Shown: piece after piece, positions 25,261 to 31,353 of the stretch
Layout: every line of letters starts with the position of its first letter
Position numbering within the stretch: position 1 is the stretch's first letter
Source of the DNA: Natrinema salaciae
GTDB taxonomy: Archaea; Halobacteriota; Halobacteria; Halobacteriales; Natrialbaceae
Direction: 5' to 3'
NCBI RefSeq assembly: GCF_900110865.1
Contig: NZ_FOFD01000001.1
Location: 806,001 to 870,000 of the forward strand
DNA: 64,000 bases
Position numbers and translations under genes: made by a program
Notes under the pieces: model-generated
Databases searched by the model: none
The model's input: only the letters and a program-made list of their open reading frames with translations
Told to the model about the DNA's origin: nothing

Positions 25261-26592
25261 GTGTACGTAATCATCGTCGGGGCCGGCGAGGTCGGTCGCT
25301 CGATTGCCGCCAACCTGGAGAACGGGCACGACGTGGTCGTCATCGACCGTGACGCCGACGTCGTCGAGGAACTGACCTACTCGCTGGACGTGCTCACGAT
25401 TCACGGCGACGGGACCGACCTCGAGACGCTACGCGAGGCCGGGATCGAGCAGGCGGAACTGGTCATCGCCTGTACGGACAACGACGAGACGAACGCGGTC
25501 GTCTGCGGCGCGGCCAAGGCGTCGACGGACGCCTTTACCATCGCGCGGGTGCGACGGCGGACGCTGCTCGAGACGTGGCAGGGTTCGCAGGGCGCGTTCG
25601 GCGTCGATTTCATGGTCTGTACGGATCTGTTGACCGCGCAGGCGATCTTCCGGATCTCCGGGCTGCCGAGCGCTCACGACGTCGATACGTTCGCTAGCGG
25701 TCTCGTCCGTATGGCCGAGTTCGACATTCCGACCGATAGCCCGATCGCGGACCGGACCGTCAGCGAGGCCGACTGCTACGATTCGCTCACCTTCGCCGCC
25801 ATCTTCCGGGGCGACGAGATGGTCGTGACCAGAGGGGATACGATCATTCGGGGTGGTGACCGCGTCGTCGTGATCGGCAGTCCCGACTCGATCAACGAGT
25901 TCGCCGACGAGGTCGCGCAGACGCCGGACGAGGCGGAGGAGGTCGTCATCGTCGGTGCCAGCGAAATCGGCTTCCAGGCCGCTCGCGAGTTCGAGGACCA
26001 CGGCTTCCGACCACGGATGATCGAACGGGACCACGACCGGGCCCGCGAGGTCGCCGAGGCGCTCCCGAACACGATGGTCATGGAGAGCGACGCGACCGAC
26101 GCCGACTTCCTCGCCCGGGAACACGTCGACGAAGCCGACGTCGTGATCGCCGCGCTCGACAGCGACGAGAAGAATCTACTCGTCTCCCTGCTCGCCGACC
26201 GCCTCGGCGTCGACCGCACCGTCGCCGTCATCGAGACGCCGGAGTACGCCGACCTCTTCGAGACCGTCGGCGTCGACGTCGCGATCAACCCCCGCGAGGA
26301 GACCGCCGAAGAGATCGTCCGCTTCACTCGCACCGACCACACCGAAAAGGTCGCCATGCTCGAGCACGACCTCGCGGAAGTCATCGAGATCGAGGTCGGC
26401 GAGGACAGCGTCCTCGTCGATCGACCGATCGCCGACGCGACGAACGACCTCCCGACGGGCGTCGTCATCGGCGCGATCTCGCGCGGAGGCGAGCACATCA
26501 CGCCCCGCGGATCGACGGTCGTCCAGCCCGGCGATCACGTCATCGTCTTCGTCGACGCGGCTGTGATCGACGAAGTCATCGAATTGATATAG
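25261..26592 (+). CDS. trkA: Trk potassium uptake protein TrkA (tandem)
   Basis: 443 residues, GTG start at 25261 preceded by GGAGGG. Two repeats of TrkA-N (NAD-binding Rossmann) and TrkA-C: first Rossmann VIIVGAGEVGRSIA, second VVIVGASEIGFQAA; TrkA-C domains near residues 140-220 and 360-443. The ring-forming cytoplasmic subunit gates TrkH in response to nucleotides. Frames are open upstream, but MYVIIVGAGEVG is the conserved start. It stands convergent to a small membrane gene and trkH. Confidence 0.93.
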   Translation: MYVIIVGAGEVGRSIAANLENGHDVVVIDRDADVVEELTYSLDVLTIHGDGTDLETLREAGIEQAELVIACTDNDETNAVVCGAAKASTDAFTIARVRRRTLLETWQGSQGAFGVDFMVCTDLLTAQAIFRISGLPSAHDVDTFASGLVRMAEFDIPTDSPIADRTVSEADCYDSLTFAAIFRGDEMVVTRGDTIIRGGDRVVVIGSPDSINEFADEVAQTPDEAEEVVIVGASEIGFQAAREFEDHGFRPRMIERDHDRAREVAEALPNTMVMESDATDADFLAREHVDEADVVIAALDSDEKNLLVSLLADRLGVDRTVAVIETPEYADLFETVGVDVAINPREETAEEIVRFTRTDHTEKVAMLEHDLAEVIEIEVGEDSVLVDRPIADATNDLPTGVVIGAISRGGEHITPRGSTVVQPGDHVIVFVDAAVIDEVIELI

Positions 26593-26649: not shown

Positions 26650-26853
26650 TCAGTTACGGATGCCGCGGTAGAGGACGTATACAACGAAGAAAACGACGTA
26701 GGTGACTGCGAGCCCGGTGGTGAGGACCGATCGTCCAACGACGGCGATGAAGAGGATCAGAAGCGGCCCGACGAGCAGGAGCGAGTCGAAGACCCGATCC
26801 TCGGCACCCGATTCGAGGAGCTCACCGACGACGGGAATATCGCCGATCTTCAT
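26650..26853 (-). CDS. Small membrane protein coupled to trkH
   Basis: 67 residues: MKIGDIPVVGELLESGAEDR, then two hydrophobic helices (SLLLVGPLLILFIAVVG and GLAVTYVVFFVVYVLYRG) and a short basic end. Its ATG overlaps the trkH stop by 4 nt, so it is translated with the channel. I do not recognise a named domain. The tight coupling and membrane nature make it a candidate accessory subunit of the Trk system (inference). Confidence 0.7.
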   Translation of the reverse strand: MKIGDIPVVGELLESGAEDRVFDSLLLVGPLLILFIAVVGRSVLTTGLAVTYVVFFVVYVLYRGIRN

Positions 26854-28400
26854 CGGTAGATCCCTCCGCGATGGAAGACCGCTCGTAACGTCACCAGGAC
26901 GGGAATGATCTCGAGGCGACCGATCCACATATTGAACAGGAACATCACCTTGCCGAGCGTCGGTAGCGACTCGGGGCCGGTGATCCCTGCGGAGAGGCCG
27001 ACGTTGCCCTGCGCGCTCGCGACCTCGAAGATCACGTTCTCGAGGGTGTACTCGCCCTGCGGGAGTATCAGGAGGAGTACGAAGGTCCCGATACCGAGGA
27101 AGAAGAACCAGAGAGCCGCGATAATCGCCGCCTCCTCGAACTCCTGACGGACTTCTCGTTCGTCGAGACGACGACCGTTGATCTTCAGTCGGCGAACGGC
27201 CGTCTCGGGATAGAAGACGTCCGCGATACGGAATCGAATGCCCTTCAGCAAGGTCAGCGCTCGGATCAGCTTGATCCCGCCCACCGTCGATCCGGCCGCG
27301 CCGCCGATAAGCATGCCGAACGCGACAGTGAGCTGGGCCTGCGCCGACCACCGGCCCAGTGCAACGTTGGTCGAATCGACGGCGGTCTGGAAACCGGCGC
27401 AGGTCGCCGCCGAGACGAACTGGAACGAGCCGTACCGGAAGGCGGTGAACAGGGAGTCGTAGGTGTCGCCCACGTACACCAACGCGGTGAGGAGGGCCGT
27501 CCCGAGACTCATATAGATGAACACCCACCGGGTCTGGAGGTCCGAATAGAGGTTCCGCAGGTCGCCCTGCAGGATGAGGTAGTGGACCGGGAACGCGATA
27601 CTGCCGAGGAGCATGACCGGCAGGAGCGCGAAGTCGATGGCCGCGCTGTCGTAGGTCGCGATCGAGTTGTCTTTGATCGAGAATCCACCCGTCGCGAGCC
27701 CCGTCATGCCGTGGTTGATCGCCCCCCAGATCGGCATCCCGACGACCCAGAGGAGCAGGATCGAGACGAAGGTGAACAGGATGAAGATCCACCAGATCGT
27801 CTGCACCGTCGAGACGATGCTCGGATGAATTCGCTCCGACCGTGCCTCGCTCTCGTAGAGAGTGAGCGATCCGCTCCCCGGCCGGGAGAGGATCGCCGTC
27901 GTGAGGACGATCACGCCGACGCCGCCGACCCACTCGATGAACGAGCGCCACCACTGGAGCGTCCGCGGCAGCACCTCCTCGTTGTCGGTCATCGTCAGTC
28001 CAGTCCCGGTGAAGCCGCTCATGCTCTCGAACAACGCGTTGAGCGGGTTCGTGAACGCCGCGAGCGTCGACGTCTGCGACGGCTCCCCGAGGACCGGCGG
28101 CGCGAACTCGACCGTCCACGCGATGAGGTAGAAGGGCAGCGATCCGAAGATCGCGACGCAGAACCAGCCCAGGGCGGCGATGATCATCCCGTGAAGCTTG
28201 CCGGGTCTGGTCGCCTCCTGGAACCGCGTCGTGAAGAAGGAGCCGATCGCGAAGGGGATCGCCCCGGAGACGATCAGCGACGGAATCGCGTAGTATTCGC
28301 CCCAGATCAGGGGAACGAGGATCGAGACGAAGAGTAACCCGGCGAGCGCCTGAAATATTCGGCCGAGGTCCCGGCCGATCGTTTCCGTCGCCTCCTTCAT
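26850..28400 (-). CDS. trkH: Trk potassium transporter, TrkH family (copy 1)
   Basis: 516 residues from MKEATETIGRDLGRIFQ. The four P-loop selectivity signatures are visible: SMSGFTGTGLT, GLATGGFSIKD, CAGFQTAVD and SAQGNVGLSAG, each with the filter glycine. About ten transmembrane segments. It imports K+ for cytoplasmic osmotic balance together with TrkA. A TrkA-type protein lies 124 bp upstream on the same strand, and the small membrane gene overlaps its end. Confidence 0.93.
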   Translation of the reverse strand: MKEATETIGRDLGRIFQALAGLLFVSILVPLIWGEYYAIPSLIVSGAIPFAIGSFFTTRFQEATRPGKLHGMIIAALGWFCVAIFGSLPFYLIAWTVEFAPPVLGEPSQTSTLAAFTNPLNALFESMSGFTGTGLTMTDNEEVLPRTLQWWRSFIEWVGGVGVIVLTTAILSRPGSGSLTLYESEARSERIHPSIVSTVQTIWWIFILFTFVSILLLWVVGMPIWGAINHGMTGLATGGFSIKDNSIATYDSAAIDFALLPVMLLGSIAFPVHYLILQGDLRNLYSDLQTRWVFIYMSLGTALLTALVYVGDTYDSLFTAFRYGSFQFVSAATCAGFQTAVDSTNVALGRWSAQAQLTVAFGMLIGGAAGSTVGGIKLIRALTLLKGIRFRIADVFYPETAVRRLKINGRRLDEREVRQEFEEAAIIAALWFFFLGIGTFVLLLILPQGEYTLENVIFEVASAQGNVGLSAGITGPESLPTLGKVMFLFNMWIGRLEIIPVLVTLRAVFHRGGIYR

Positions 28401-28524
28401 GCGTTCCCTCCCGTCGCCGGTCGCGAATACGCGGCACTCCGTCGGCGGTTCGCTCGAGTCCCGACGCTCGAAGCCGTCCGGACCAGGTAGCGGGCGAACG
28501 CGAGGGAACCGTTCGGGTCGCCCG

Positions 28525-29211
28525 TCATCGCAATCGATCTTCGGGGTGGCCGAACACGTCGGTGAGTTCGGGTTCGGCACCGAACGCCGAGTAGACGGTG
28601 ACCAGATCGCCGGCCTCGATTCTCGTCCTCCCTTTCGGCGTGATCGGCGGATCCTCCCCTTCGCGTTCGATCGCGACGATCAGAACGTCGTCGGAGAGGA
28701 GACCCCCGTCGTCGGCTTCGATGAGCGTCTTCCCGGCAATCGGTGCGTTATCCGTCACCTGGATCTCGAACACTTCCGCCTCCTCCCCGATCCGCATGTA
28801 ATCGACGATCGCCGGGCGGGCGACCGCCCGATAGAGATACTGGGCAATGAGTTCCTGCGGGTTTTCCATCGTGTTGACGCCGATCTGGCGGAACACGTTC
28901 ATGTGCTGGGGGTCGTGAACGACCGAGACGATATTGGGGACCTCGTGTTCCTGCGCGAGCAGGCAGACCATGATGTTGGTCGGGTCTCGGTCGGTCGTGC
29001 TGATCAGGGCGTCCGCGTTCCCGATTCCGGCGTCGATAAGCGCTTCGTGAGCCGTCGCATCGTCGTTGAGAATCAGACAGTCGTATTCACCGGCGACCCG
29101 ATCCGCTCGCTCGGGATCGTTCTCGATGACGACGACCTCGTTTCCCGACCGCGTCGCGATATCGATGAGCGGAATTCCGATATCGCCCGCGCCGACGATG
29201 ACGAGATACAT
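28525..29211 (-). CDS. TrkA-type regulatory protein (single unit)
   Basis: 228 residues from MYLVIVGAGDIGIPLID. One Rossmann TrkA-N domain (GAGDIG) followed by one TrkA-C domain (VFEIQVTDNAPIAGKTLIEA...PKGRTRIEAGDLVTV). Half the length of the tandem TrkA 2 kb away. A TATA-like GATATATTTTC near 29240-29248, about 32 nt from the ATG, indicates a leaderless mRNA. It probably partners the adjacent trkH copy 1. Upstream in-frame residues are not conserved-looking. Confidence 0.9.
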   Translation of the reverse strand: MYLVIVGAGDIGIPLIDIATRSGNEVVVIENDPERADRVAGEYDCLILNDDATAHEALIDAGIGNADALISTTDRDPTNIMVCLLAQEHEVPNIVSVVHDPQHMNVFRQIGVNTMENPQELIAQYLYRAVARPAIVDYMRIGEEAEVFEIQVTDNAPIAGKTLIEADDGGLLSDDVLIVAIEREGEDPPITPKGRTRIEAGDLVTVYSAFGAEPELTDVFGHPEDRLR

Positions 29212-29364
29212 TGCGTCGGTCTTCTTACGTGACCGTTGAAAATATATCGTTTCAGTGATCTCGGTTACGACCATCGAACTCGAGCCGTCGCCGCGTAATC
29301 GGTTTCGAACTTCGAACGCCCGGCACCGTGCAGGCGCGCACGACGCGACGCTATCGAGACCCGT

Positions 29365-29607
29365 TCATTCCCACGGCGGCTTCTCCTGTCGCTGCTTCGA
29401 GCGGGCCTCGGACTCCGCTAGAATCCGTTCGATCGCCCAGCCGACCCACAGGAAGATGATCGCCATGAAGACGACCATCTCGAGCCGGATGGCCGACCCG
29501 TATCGGACAGCCAGGACGAGAGCCATGATCGCCACCGCGGCGGCGACGACGGTGAACACGTCGTAAAACGAGTGCGGGTGGCGAACGCTTGGTAATCGGG
29601 CGCTCAT
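29365..29607 (-). CDS. Small membrane protein (80 aa)
   Basis: 80 residues: MSARLPSVRHPHSFYDVFTV, one or two hydrophobic helices (VVAAAVAIMALVLAV and MVVFMAIIFLWVGWAIERIL), then a charged tail KQRQEKPPWE. A TATA-like CTATATACG near 29627-29633 gives a leaderless start. It sits between the trkA-type gene and the divergent second trkH. I do not recognise a family. It is the second small membrane protein of the Trk locus. Confidence 0.7.
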   Translation of the reverse strand: MSARLPSVRHPHSFYDVFTVVAAAVAIMALVLAVRYGSAIRLEMVVFMAIIFLWVGWAIERILAESEARSKQRQEKPPWE

Positions 29608-29814
29608 GGGTCAATATACGCCCGATTCGTATATAGGTCCTCGTCTCGGAACGACGGAGCGGGGATCGCACGCCGACCAGCGTCGCCGCTCGTCTCCGTT
29701 TGGCCGCCGCGAGCGCCGTTCCGACGGAGGCCGACTTACGATGGATTAATACGATTCTACCCAAATGCCGTTAGATACCGTGTCCAGACGTGCCCCTGCG
29801 AACGGAGTGTTTCT

Positions 29815-31353
29815 ATGAGACTCCGCACTGACTGGCGCGCCAGTTTTGCGCTCGTCGGCACCGTTTTGAAATATCTCTCCGTCCCGCTCGTGATCCCGAT
29901 CGTCGTGGCACTCATCTACGGCGACTCCCTGTTCCCGTTCGTCGCGACGATCGCGCTCACGATCGCCGTCGGCCACGGTCTCGAGCGACTCAGCCCCGAA
30001 CCGGATCTGCAGGTCCGGGAGGCGATGCTCTTCGTCGCGGTATCGTGGCTGGCAGTGGCGATCGTCGGTGCCGTCCCCTACGTGATCGCGGGCTGGGGGA
30101 CCGAATCGACGCTCGCCCATCCCGTCAACGCGCTGTTCGAGTCGATGTCCGGGTTCACGACGACCGGGGCGACGGTGCTCGGGAAGATCTCGCTCGAGCA
30201 CCACTCCCACGCCGTGATGATGTGGCGACAGCTCACGCAGTGGCTCGGCGGGATGGGGATCATCGTGCTGATGGTCGCGATCCTGCCGGAGTTGGCGGTC
30301 AGCGGCGCGCAACTCGTCGAGTCGGAAGCGCCGGGTCCGCAGCTACAGAAACTCACGCCGCGAATCGCCGAGACGGCGCGCATCCTCTGGCTCGTCTACT
30401 TCGCCTTTACAATCGTCTACATCGCTATTCTCTACGGGTTCCACCTCGCAGGAGTGGCCCCGAACATGAACTTGTATAACGCCATCGCCCACGGGTTCAC
30501 GACGCTCCCGACGGGCGGATTCTCGCCGGAAGCCGACAGCGTCGCGGCGTTCTCCGCGATCGTCCAGTGGACGTTCGTTCCCTTCATGATCATCGCCGGG
30601 ACGAACTTCGCCCTGTTCTGGCACGTCTTTAGCGGGGAGGGTGACCACTTCGTCCACAACTCCGAGTTTCGGACCTATATCGGCGCGATCGGCGTGTTTA
30701 CCGTTCTCCTCACCGGAATCCTCTATACCGGTGCCGCACCGGAGCTGGGAGAACTCGGCGGCGTGACGGAAGAGGTCTTCGGGAACTCGCTGCGACAGAG
30801 CGCCTTCCAGATCGCGTCGCTACTGAACTCGACGGGCTATGCGACCAGCGACTTCGCCGAGTGGACCGCGACGGGGAAGATCGTTCTCCTCTTCGCCATG
30901 CTCGTCGGCGGCTGTGCCGGGTCGACCGGGGGCGGCGTCAAAGTCGTTCGGTGGCTGATCGTTTTCAAGATCCTCCGCCGAGAACTGTTCACAGCCTCCC
31001 ACCCCGAGGTCGTCCGCCCGATCCGGCTCGGCGGCAACGTGGTCGACGAGGACGCCGTTCGCGGCGTGCTGGGTTTCACCTTCCTCTACCTGTTCATCTT
31101 CGGTATCGCCGCGCTGTTCATCGCGCTCGACACGAGCCGTATCGGATACTCGCTGACGCCCCTCGAGGCGTTCAGCGCGAGCCTCGCGACGATCGGCAAC
31201 ATCGGTCCCGGGTTCGGCTCCCTGGGGCCCTTCGGGAACTACCTGAACTTTCCGATCAGCTCGAAGCTCCTGCTGATCTTCCTCATGTGGATCGGCCGTC
31301 TCGAGATCATTCCCGTCCTCGTCATGTTCACGGGTGGGTTCTGGACCCGCTGA
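29815..31353 (+). CDS. trkH: Trk potassium transporter, TrkH family (copy 2)
   Basis: 512 residues. P-loops: SMSGFTTTGATVL, FTTLPTGGFSPE, LNSTGYATSD and ATIGNIGPGFGS, each with the filter glycine. It is a paralogue of copy 1 with clearly diverged filters, so ion preference or affinity may differ. TATA-like ATTAATAC near 29744. It runs opposite to the other trk genes and converges with ipk. Confidence 0.93.
   Translation: MRLRTDWRASFALVGTVLKYLSVPLVIPIVVALIYGDSLFPFVATIALTIAVGHGLERLSPEPDLQVREAMLFVAVSWLAVAIVGAVPYVIAGWGTESTLAHPVNALFESMSGFTTTGATVLGKISLEHHSHAVMMWRQLTQWLGGMGIIVLMVAILPELAVSGAQLVESEAPGPQLQKLTPRIAETARILWLVYFAFTIVYIAILYGFHLAGVAPNMNLYNAIAHGFTTLPTGGFSPEADSVAAFSAIVQWTFVPFMIIAGTNFALFWHVFSGEGDHFVHNSEFRTYIGAIGVFTVLLTGILYTGAAPELGELGGVTEEVFGNSLRQSAFQIASLLNSTGYATSDFAEWTATGKIVLLFAMLVGGCAGSTGGGVKVVRWLIVFKILRRELFTASHPEVVRPIRLGGNVVDEDAVRGVLGFTFLYLFIFGIAALFIALDTSRIGYSLTPLEAFSASLATIGNIGPGFGSLGPFGNYLNFPISSKLLLIFLMWIGRLEIIPVLVMFTGGFWTR

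Follow-up and report, generated by a model that had tools for sequence, protein, structure and literature searches.

Two small predicted membrane proteins linked to different TrkH potassium channel genes in Natrinema salaciae and related haloarchaea

Two short genes of the haloarchaeon Natrinema salaciae, here termed smA and smB, probably encode overlooked helper subunits or regulators of TrkH channels, since both genes follow channel genes through many related genomes. Genomic linkage indicates that smA tracks TrkH1 and smB tracks TrkH2, and that the two small genes serve different trkH genes. We regard it as fairly probable that smA represents a dedicated subunit or an assembly or stability factor of the TrkH1 clade and that smB acts as a more loosely linked regulator of TrkH2 and not as an obligate subunit. 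Haloarchaea keep molar concentrations of potassium inside the cell, with Trk among the uptake routes, and to our knowledge the haloarchaeal Trk system has been modelled as TrkH and TrkA only. In the family, all TrkH1-clade genes that were examined are accompanied by smA, which suggests that a part of this system has been overlooked. Such a partner, if true, might explain why the cells keep two kinds of TrkH, and the carriage of smA in Halobacterium salinarum and Haloferax makes the idea testable in laboratory strains that are amenable to experiments.

Genetic organisation of the Trk locus and properties of the small proteins

Within the window, i.e. the whole stretch of 64,000 nucleotides that was analysed, two Trk systems adjoin each other. 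The gene order on the minus strand is smB-trkA1-trkH1-smA, and the plus strand carries trkH2 and trkA2, the latter being convergent with smA. The relevant features are:

25261 to 26592 (about), plus strand: TrkA2, a double-RCK TrkA with a putative start codon (NCBIfam NF007034 over cut-off; two TrkA_N stretches according to Pfam)
26650 to 26853, minus strand: smA, a small membrane protein of 67 aa with two predicted helices, linked to TrkH1 (open reading frame, conservation, synteny, hairpin model)
26850 to 26853, minus strand: ATGA shared by the stop codon of trkH1 and the start codon of smA, an overlap expected from the sequence to couple translation
26850 to 28400, minus strand: TrkH1, K+ channel or transporter subunit of 516 aa (Pfam PF02386, E = 1.9e-76)
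28525 to 29211, minus strand: TrkA1, a single-RCK regulator (Pfam: one TrkA_N and one TrkA_C)
29365 to 29607, minus strand: smB, a small membrane protein of 80 aa with two predicted helices, linked to TrkH2 (open reading frame, conservation, synteny, low-confidence model)
29629 to 29635, minus strand: conserved TATA-like box, about 22 to 28 nt before the smB ATG, a putative promoter element (intergenic alignment)
29738 to 29754, plus strand: ACGATGGATTAATACGA, a strongly conserved element 5' of TrkH2 (intergenic alignment)
29815 to 31353, plus strand: TrkH2, second K+ channel or transporter subunit of 512 aa (Pfam PF02386, E = 9.3e-68)

Both channel proteins belong to the TrkH family, as TrkH1 and TrkH2 scored 258 and 229 bits against PF02386 at a cut-off of 27, and the PDB entries 3pjz and 4j9u were identified as relatives of TrkH1. 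An earlier note on this DNA had described a 67-aa reading frame that overlaps a trkH stop codon by four nucleotides and an 80-aa reading frame as the first gene beside a divergent trkH. Both descriptions proved accurate: the ATG of smA and the TGA of TrkH1 share the four nucleotides ATGA, and smB opens the minus-strand gene series, with a gap of 207 nt to the start of the divergent TrkH2 and of 154 nt to trkA1. An identical gene order is present on a plasmid of Natrinema thermotolerans, where the deposited annotation labels both smA and smB as hypothetical protein.

The note had also recognised no named domain in the two proteins, in agreement with searches in which neither window protein matched Pfam below E = 0.03 or NCBIfam at E ≤ 1. 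Two of 20 smA family members matched the closest known family, Pfam DUF2177 (PF09945), at E ≤ 0.01, with 26.5 and 18.9 bits and thus below its cut-off of 26.9, and because two members touch this family a remote known family for smA is possible. The PDB contained no credible match to smA or smB. Profile matches of smA to a designed protein (E = 4e-8, with no stretch passing alone) and to HIV proteases were judged to reflect chance similarity to a short motif, and a Foldseek search with the smA model returned nothing at E ≤ 0.001.

The AlphaFold2 model of smA comprises helices at residues 7-14, 17-39 and 43-66 and, with pLDDT values above 90 over residues 21-60, represents a confident hairpin, which according to its hydrophobicity would sit in the membrane. 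The best-conserved residues in 100 single-copy pairs are G16, D19, G29, P30, G40, R41, Y52, F56 and Y59; in the model, the two long helices would be joined at a tip containing G40-R41, and the conserved tyrosines would be located on the second of these helices. The smB model (mean pLDDT 65.7) contains two helices at low confidence only. Both genes are under purifying selection, with a median dN/dS of 0.23 for smA (185 usable of 209 pairs) and 0.25 for smB (155 of 164 pairs), calculated from equal-length pairs that are mutually dependent. Both genes are short and unnamed, and the GC-rich genome is rich in spurious open reading frames, but these dN/dS values along with the conserved synteny and the presence of smA in 35 of 87 genera rule out chance reading frames or annotation artefacts, an explanation of negligible probability.

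Association of smA with the TrkH1 clade

Homologues of the smA protein were detected at 53 places in 36 of the 125 genomes of the family; at 52 places TrkH1 is located 5' on the same strand, and the remaining one (G084) is spurious. The 53 smA places and all 76 smB places are contained in 99 fetched regions. The 196 regions fetched overall were chosen for the presence of smA or smB and not for TrkH, except for 20 regions chosen because they hold a TrkH1-like gene at which no smA had been detected, where the sole smA spotted is that of locus L343. A search of the 196 regions with an smA profile (E ≤ 1e-3) yielded 115 matches, and 113 of these follow a TrkH gene immediately at its 3' side; of the other two, one is an smA (L231) that precedes TrkH1 in the same orientation and one is a spurious permease segment. 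Matches of the smA profile or protein rejected as spurious were G084/L135 and the permease segments L277 and L279. At the level of the order, a 20-row profile detected smA in 76 of 293 genomes, a count that takes in a few weak matches (G150, G288 and second matches in G135 and G160), and beyond the order in one genome (G381), where the gene is again joined to TrkH1. In named genera, including Halobacterium salinarum, Haloferax and Halorubrum, TrkH1 directly precedes smA at 22 of 22 loci.

The association was likewise evident in the reverse direction, for which the TrkH1-like genes of the 125 family genomes were compiled (107 rows at E ≤ 1e-60). All 48 genes with at least 64% identity to TrkH1 are accompanied by smA, as are none of the 50 paralogues with 52-59% identity and four of the nine genes with 39-44% identity, with one more (L343) recognised by eye. 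The earlier note had named the lack of a link to trkH in other genomes as an outcome speaking against its proposal, and for smA this outcome is excluded. All 33 genomes with a TrkH1 of at least 64% identity carry smA, which occurs in 35 of the 125 genomes (Fisher p = 3e-28, uncorrected for phylogeny), and smA-free genomes of the same genus (G052, G053, G062, G063 and G068-G071) gave no TrkH1-like match at E ≤ 1e-60, which corresponds to a co-loss. In a phylogeny comprising 206 TrkH proteins, four changes account for the presence of smA, one of which is L231, scored as absent on account of the upstream position of smA, compared with 68.7 changes for shuffled labels; none of the 68 TrkH2 rows carries smA. 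A single origin is likely but short of demonstrated, because the tree tool flagged long-branch joins among the rows with 40-43% identity. Since the 50 TrkH1 paralogues, which presumably work, and the 68 TrkH2 proteins are without smA, the small protein appears dispensable for TrkH function in general.

The distance between smA and the preceding TrkH gene is -4 nt in 92 of 113 copies, -1 nt in 11, 0 nt in eight, and +2 and +46 nt in one copy each, so that the start of smA overlaps TrkH by four or one nucleotides in 103 copies. A TrkA gene is located upstream of the TrkH-smA pair in 77 of the 113 cases, downstream in 15, on both sides in one and on neither side in 18, with two pairs at a region edge; smA stays with TrkH more tightly than TrkA does. 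The evolutionary distances of smA and TrkH1 are correlated (Pearson 0.78, 100 pairs), as is also found for co-inherited neighbours that do not bind each other. A generic small hairpin behind every TrkH was refuted by visual inspection of the 20 TrkH1-like regions and nine earlier ones, in which the only downstream small genes are smA in L343, smB in L149, L139 and L143, and an unrelated 85-aa reading frame in L339 (G067:C4). The latter encodes a hydrophobic protein unlike smA, begins 66 nt after an smA-free TrkH1 paralogue of 53% identity and is a possible third small partner. Several TrkA1-TrkH1-smA modules are present in two genomes of the same genus, with six smA places in G057 and three in G074, and some of these modules (L103, L105, L128 and L129) adjoin further TrkH2 and smB copies. 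In Halolamina pelagica (L322, 3295-4195) the TrkH1 match is broken, with a large middle part missing, and the downstream smA is intact.

In the mechanism that we propose, ribosomes terminating at trkH1 would re-initiate at the overlapping ATG, and smA would therefore be made next to the channel and in fixed proportion to it. The two-helix hairpin would pack against TrkH1, and the bound protein may stabilise the channel or influence how the RCK protein TrkA1 gates it. Short gene overlaps couple translation in Haloferax volcanii, where 45.2% of the gene pairs spaced by -8 to +10 nt are reported to encode subunits of heteromeric complexes, compared with 5.6% at more than 20 nt (PMC10666635). Because of this overlap coupling and the two-way pairing, a fixed-ratio partner of TrkH1 is the best reading of smA, in which coupled translation at the present locus, physical binding and any effect on K+ flux are inferred. 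A transient action on TrkH1, as an insertase-like helper or in quality control, or an action on the docking of TrkA1, in either case without smA being a stoichiometric subunit, appears unlikely. The same synteny and coupling would be expected for such a helper, and the smA-free TrkH1 paralogues fit it as well, but the strict clade-specific pairing and the overlaps of four or one nucleotides suit a fixed-ratio partner better (PMC10666635), and the 18 of 113 TrkH-smA pairs without an adjacent TrkA make docking improbable as the only role. It is very improbable that smA represents a C-terminal extension of TrkH1 produced by frameshifting or stop read-through. The 103 copies with overlaps of -4 or -1 nt do share the same relative frame, these spacings being equivalent, but eight copies at spacing 0 are in another frame, one lies at +46 nt and one is located 5' of TrkH1; an ATG is present at the overlap in most copies and no fused gene was noticed in the fetched regions.

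Association of smB with TrkH2 and the shared intergenic region

Homologues of smB were identified at 76 places in 59 of the 125 family genomes. The gene is located within 700 nt of 52 of the 58 TrkH2 genes with at least 65% identity, in 50 cases divergently at the 5' side and in two convergently at the 3' side, and near two of 88 TrkH2-like genes with 52-61% identity and one of four with 48-51% among the matches listed. Genomes G058, G068 and G071 contain TrkH2 without any smB match, the smB of G053 is found at an APC-Usp permease apart from the TrkH2 of this genome, that of G119 is located beside a TrkH2 paralogue of 56% identity, and the sixth exception, G074:C5, is an extra copy. In three loci a relocated smB is still found at a TrkH gene, where it follows a TrkH1 paralogue at a distance of about 250 nt (L139 and L143) or 76 nt (L149). 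Linkage to a transporter gene was accordingly observed for both small genes, for smA with TrkH1 and more loosely for smB with TrkH2. The co-occurrence with trkH that the earlier note named as a check holds for smB in so far as the gene is linked to TrkH2, but this is another TrkH than that of smA, and the wider smB family is also found at antiporter and APC-Usp loci. The role suggested in the note, a regulator or stabiliser of the channel, is supported in part and stands as a putative one for both proteins.

This wider distribution became apparent with an smB profile that detected 90 places in 175 regions (E ≤ 1e-4). At 60 of these places, a trk gene is the closest of the tested markers within 1.5 kb; an APC permease takes this position at nine, a CPA2 antiporter at four and a Usp gene at one, and 16 places have none of the markers. 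Sampled neighbours of smB family genes encode either Na_H_Exchanger proteins with TrkA_N or a nearby TrkA_C, or AA_permease_2 proteins with Usp domains, and distant smB relatives accordingly adjoin RCK-bearing antiporters and APC-Usp permeases. With 2-12 AA_permease_2 and 7-16 Na_H_Exchanger matches per genome in seven genomes, chance proximity is estimated at about 1-2% per place, the marker proximities being mutually dependent because permeases also occur near Trk loci. In locus L157 (G110:C2, 8127-17327) an smB family gene is located among clustered genes for APC-Usp permeases and Usp proteins, and CPA2 antiporters are present on the same contig at a distance of about 8-10 kb.

An alignment of the intergenic regions between smB and TrkH2, comprising the 27 of 31 loci with fewer than 260 nt, of which 12 rows were displayed, revealed that the TATA-like box is kept at 22-28 nt before the smB ATG. 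This position suggests a leaderless smB-trkA1-trkH1-smA transcript with the box as putative promoter element. The conservation of ACGATGGATTAATACGA in the aligned regions exceeds the needs of a TATA box, and the element is a possible regulator site. A short upstream reading frame conserved before TrkH2 was considered and rejected, as frame and start vary.

We thus envisage smB as a separate hairpin that would be expressed from its own promoter and be linked to TrkH2 and, more loosely, to other transporters carrying RCK or Usp modules. That smB is a bystander, or a general stress or transport membrane protein that shares the control region of TrkH2 without acting directly on TrkH, is a serious possibility, although not the outcome we expect. 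Its own conserved TATA-like box, the family members at APC-Usp, CPA2, Usp and unclassified places and the G053 copy separated from TrkH2 are consistent with such a protein, but smB is kept at 52 of 58 TrkH2 genes compared with two of 88 more distant TrkH2-like genes, and both the rearranged copies at TrkH genes and the G119 copy argue against it. For smB, a part in regulating TrkH2 is more probable, at lower confidence than the reading of smA. Rather doubtful is the broader notion of hairpin subunits specific to TrkH clades in the Trk systems of haloarchaea, with smA being stoichiometric for TrkH1 and coupled to it in translation, and smB representing TrkH2 in a wider family of hairpins that connects nucleotide-sensing RCK/TrkA or Usp modules of the cytosol to several monovalent-cation and APC-Usp transporters.

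Comparison with known transporters and their small partner proteins

KdpF, which has one helix, had been put forward as a likeness for the two small proteins, and this likeness stands as an analogy and not as a relationship. Like KdpF, smA is a small membrane protein in a K+ uptake system, but it ranges from 64 to 109 aa in the aligned set, is predicted to contain two long helices and has no KdpF-family match; this family was absent from the Pfam matches of the window proteins smA and smB (E ≤ 1) and of 20 smA and 24 smB family members (E ≤ 0.01). Moreover, KdpF is encoded with kdpABC, and the neighbours of smA and smB are trkA and trkH. The mycobacterial KdpF comprises 30 aa, and KdpF supposedly stabilises the KdpABC complex (PMC3618439), whose channel-like subunit KdpA aligns with KtrB and TrkH in a superfamily of K+ transporters (PMC6255902).

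The TrkH1 and TrkH2 systems resemble TrkH-TrkA and KtrAB in that they combine Pfam TrkH members with single- and double-RCK partners (PMC6987127). The bacterial TrkA opens and closes TrkH by nucleotide-driven changes, and the available part of this account mentions no small subunit or accessory protein, in which it differs from the smA and smB loci (PMC6987127). A literature search on TrkH with small proteins, haloarchaea and accessory or auxiliary subunits retrieved no small TrkH partner in the text accessible outside subscription journals.

In outline, smA may be compared with CydX, a protein of 37 aa (PMC4325964) needed for the function of cytochrome bd oxidase, and with AcrZ, which binds AcrB (PMC6005532, PMC7267776), as each is a short hydrophobic protein beside a large membrane complex. 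The host complexes are different, however, and the comparison at the level of Pfam scans revealed no resemblance. An archaeal counterpart of similar size is sP36, a protein of 61 aa that regulates the ammonium transporter AmtB1, shifts from the cytoplasm to the membrane and acts with GlnK1 (PMC10714827). Unlike sP36, smA is predicted to be embedded in the membrane, and its gene overlaps that of the channel.
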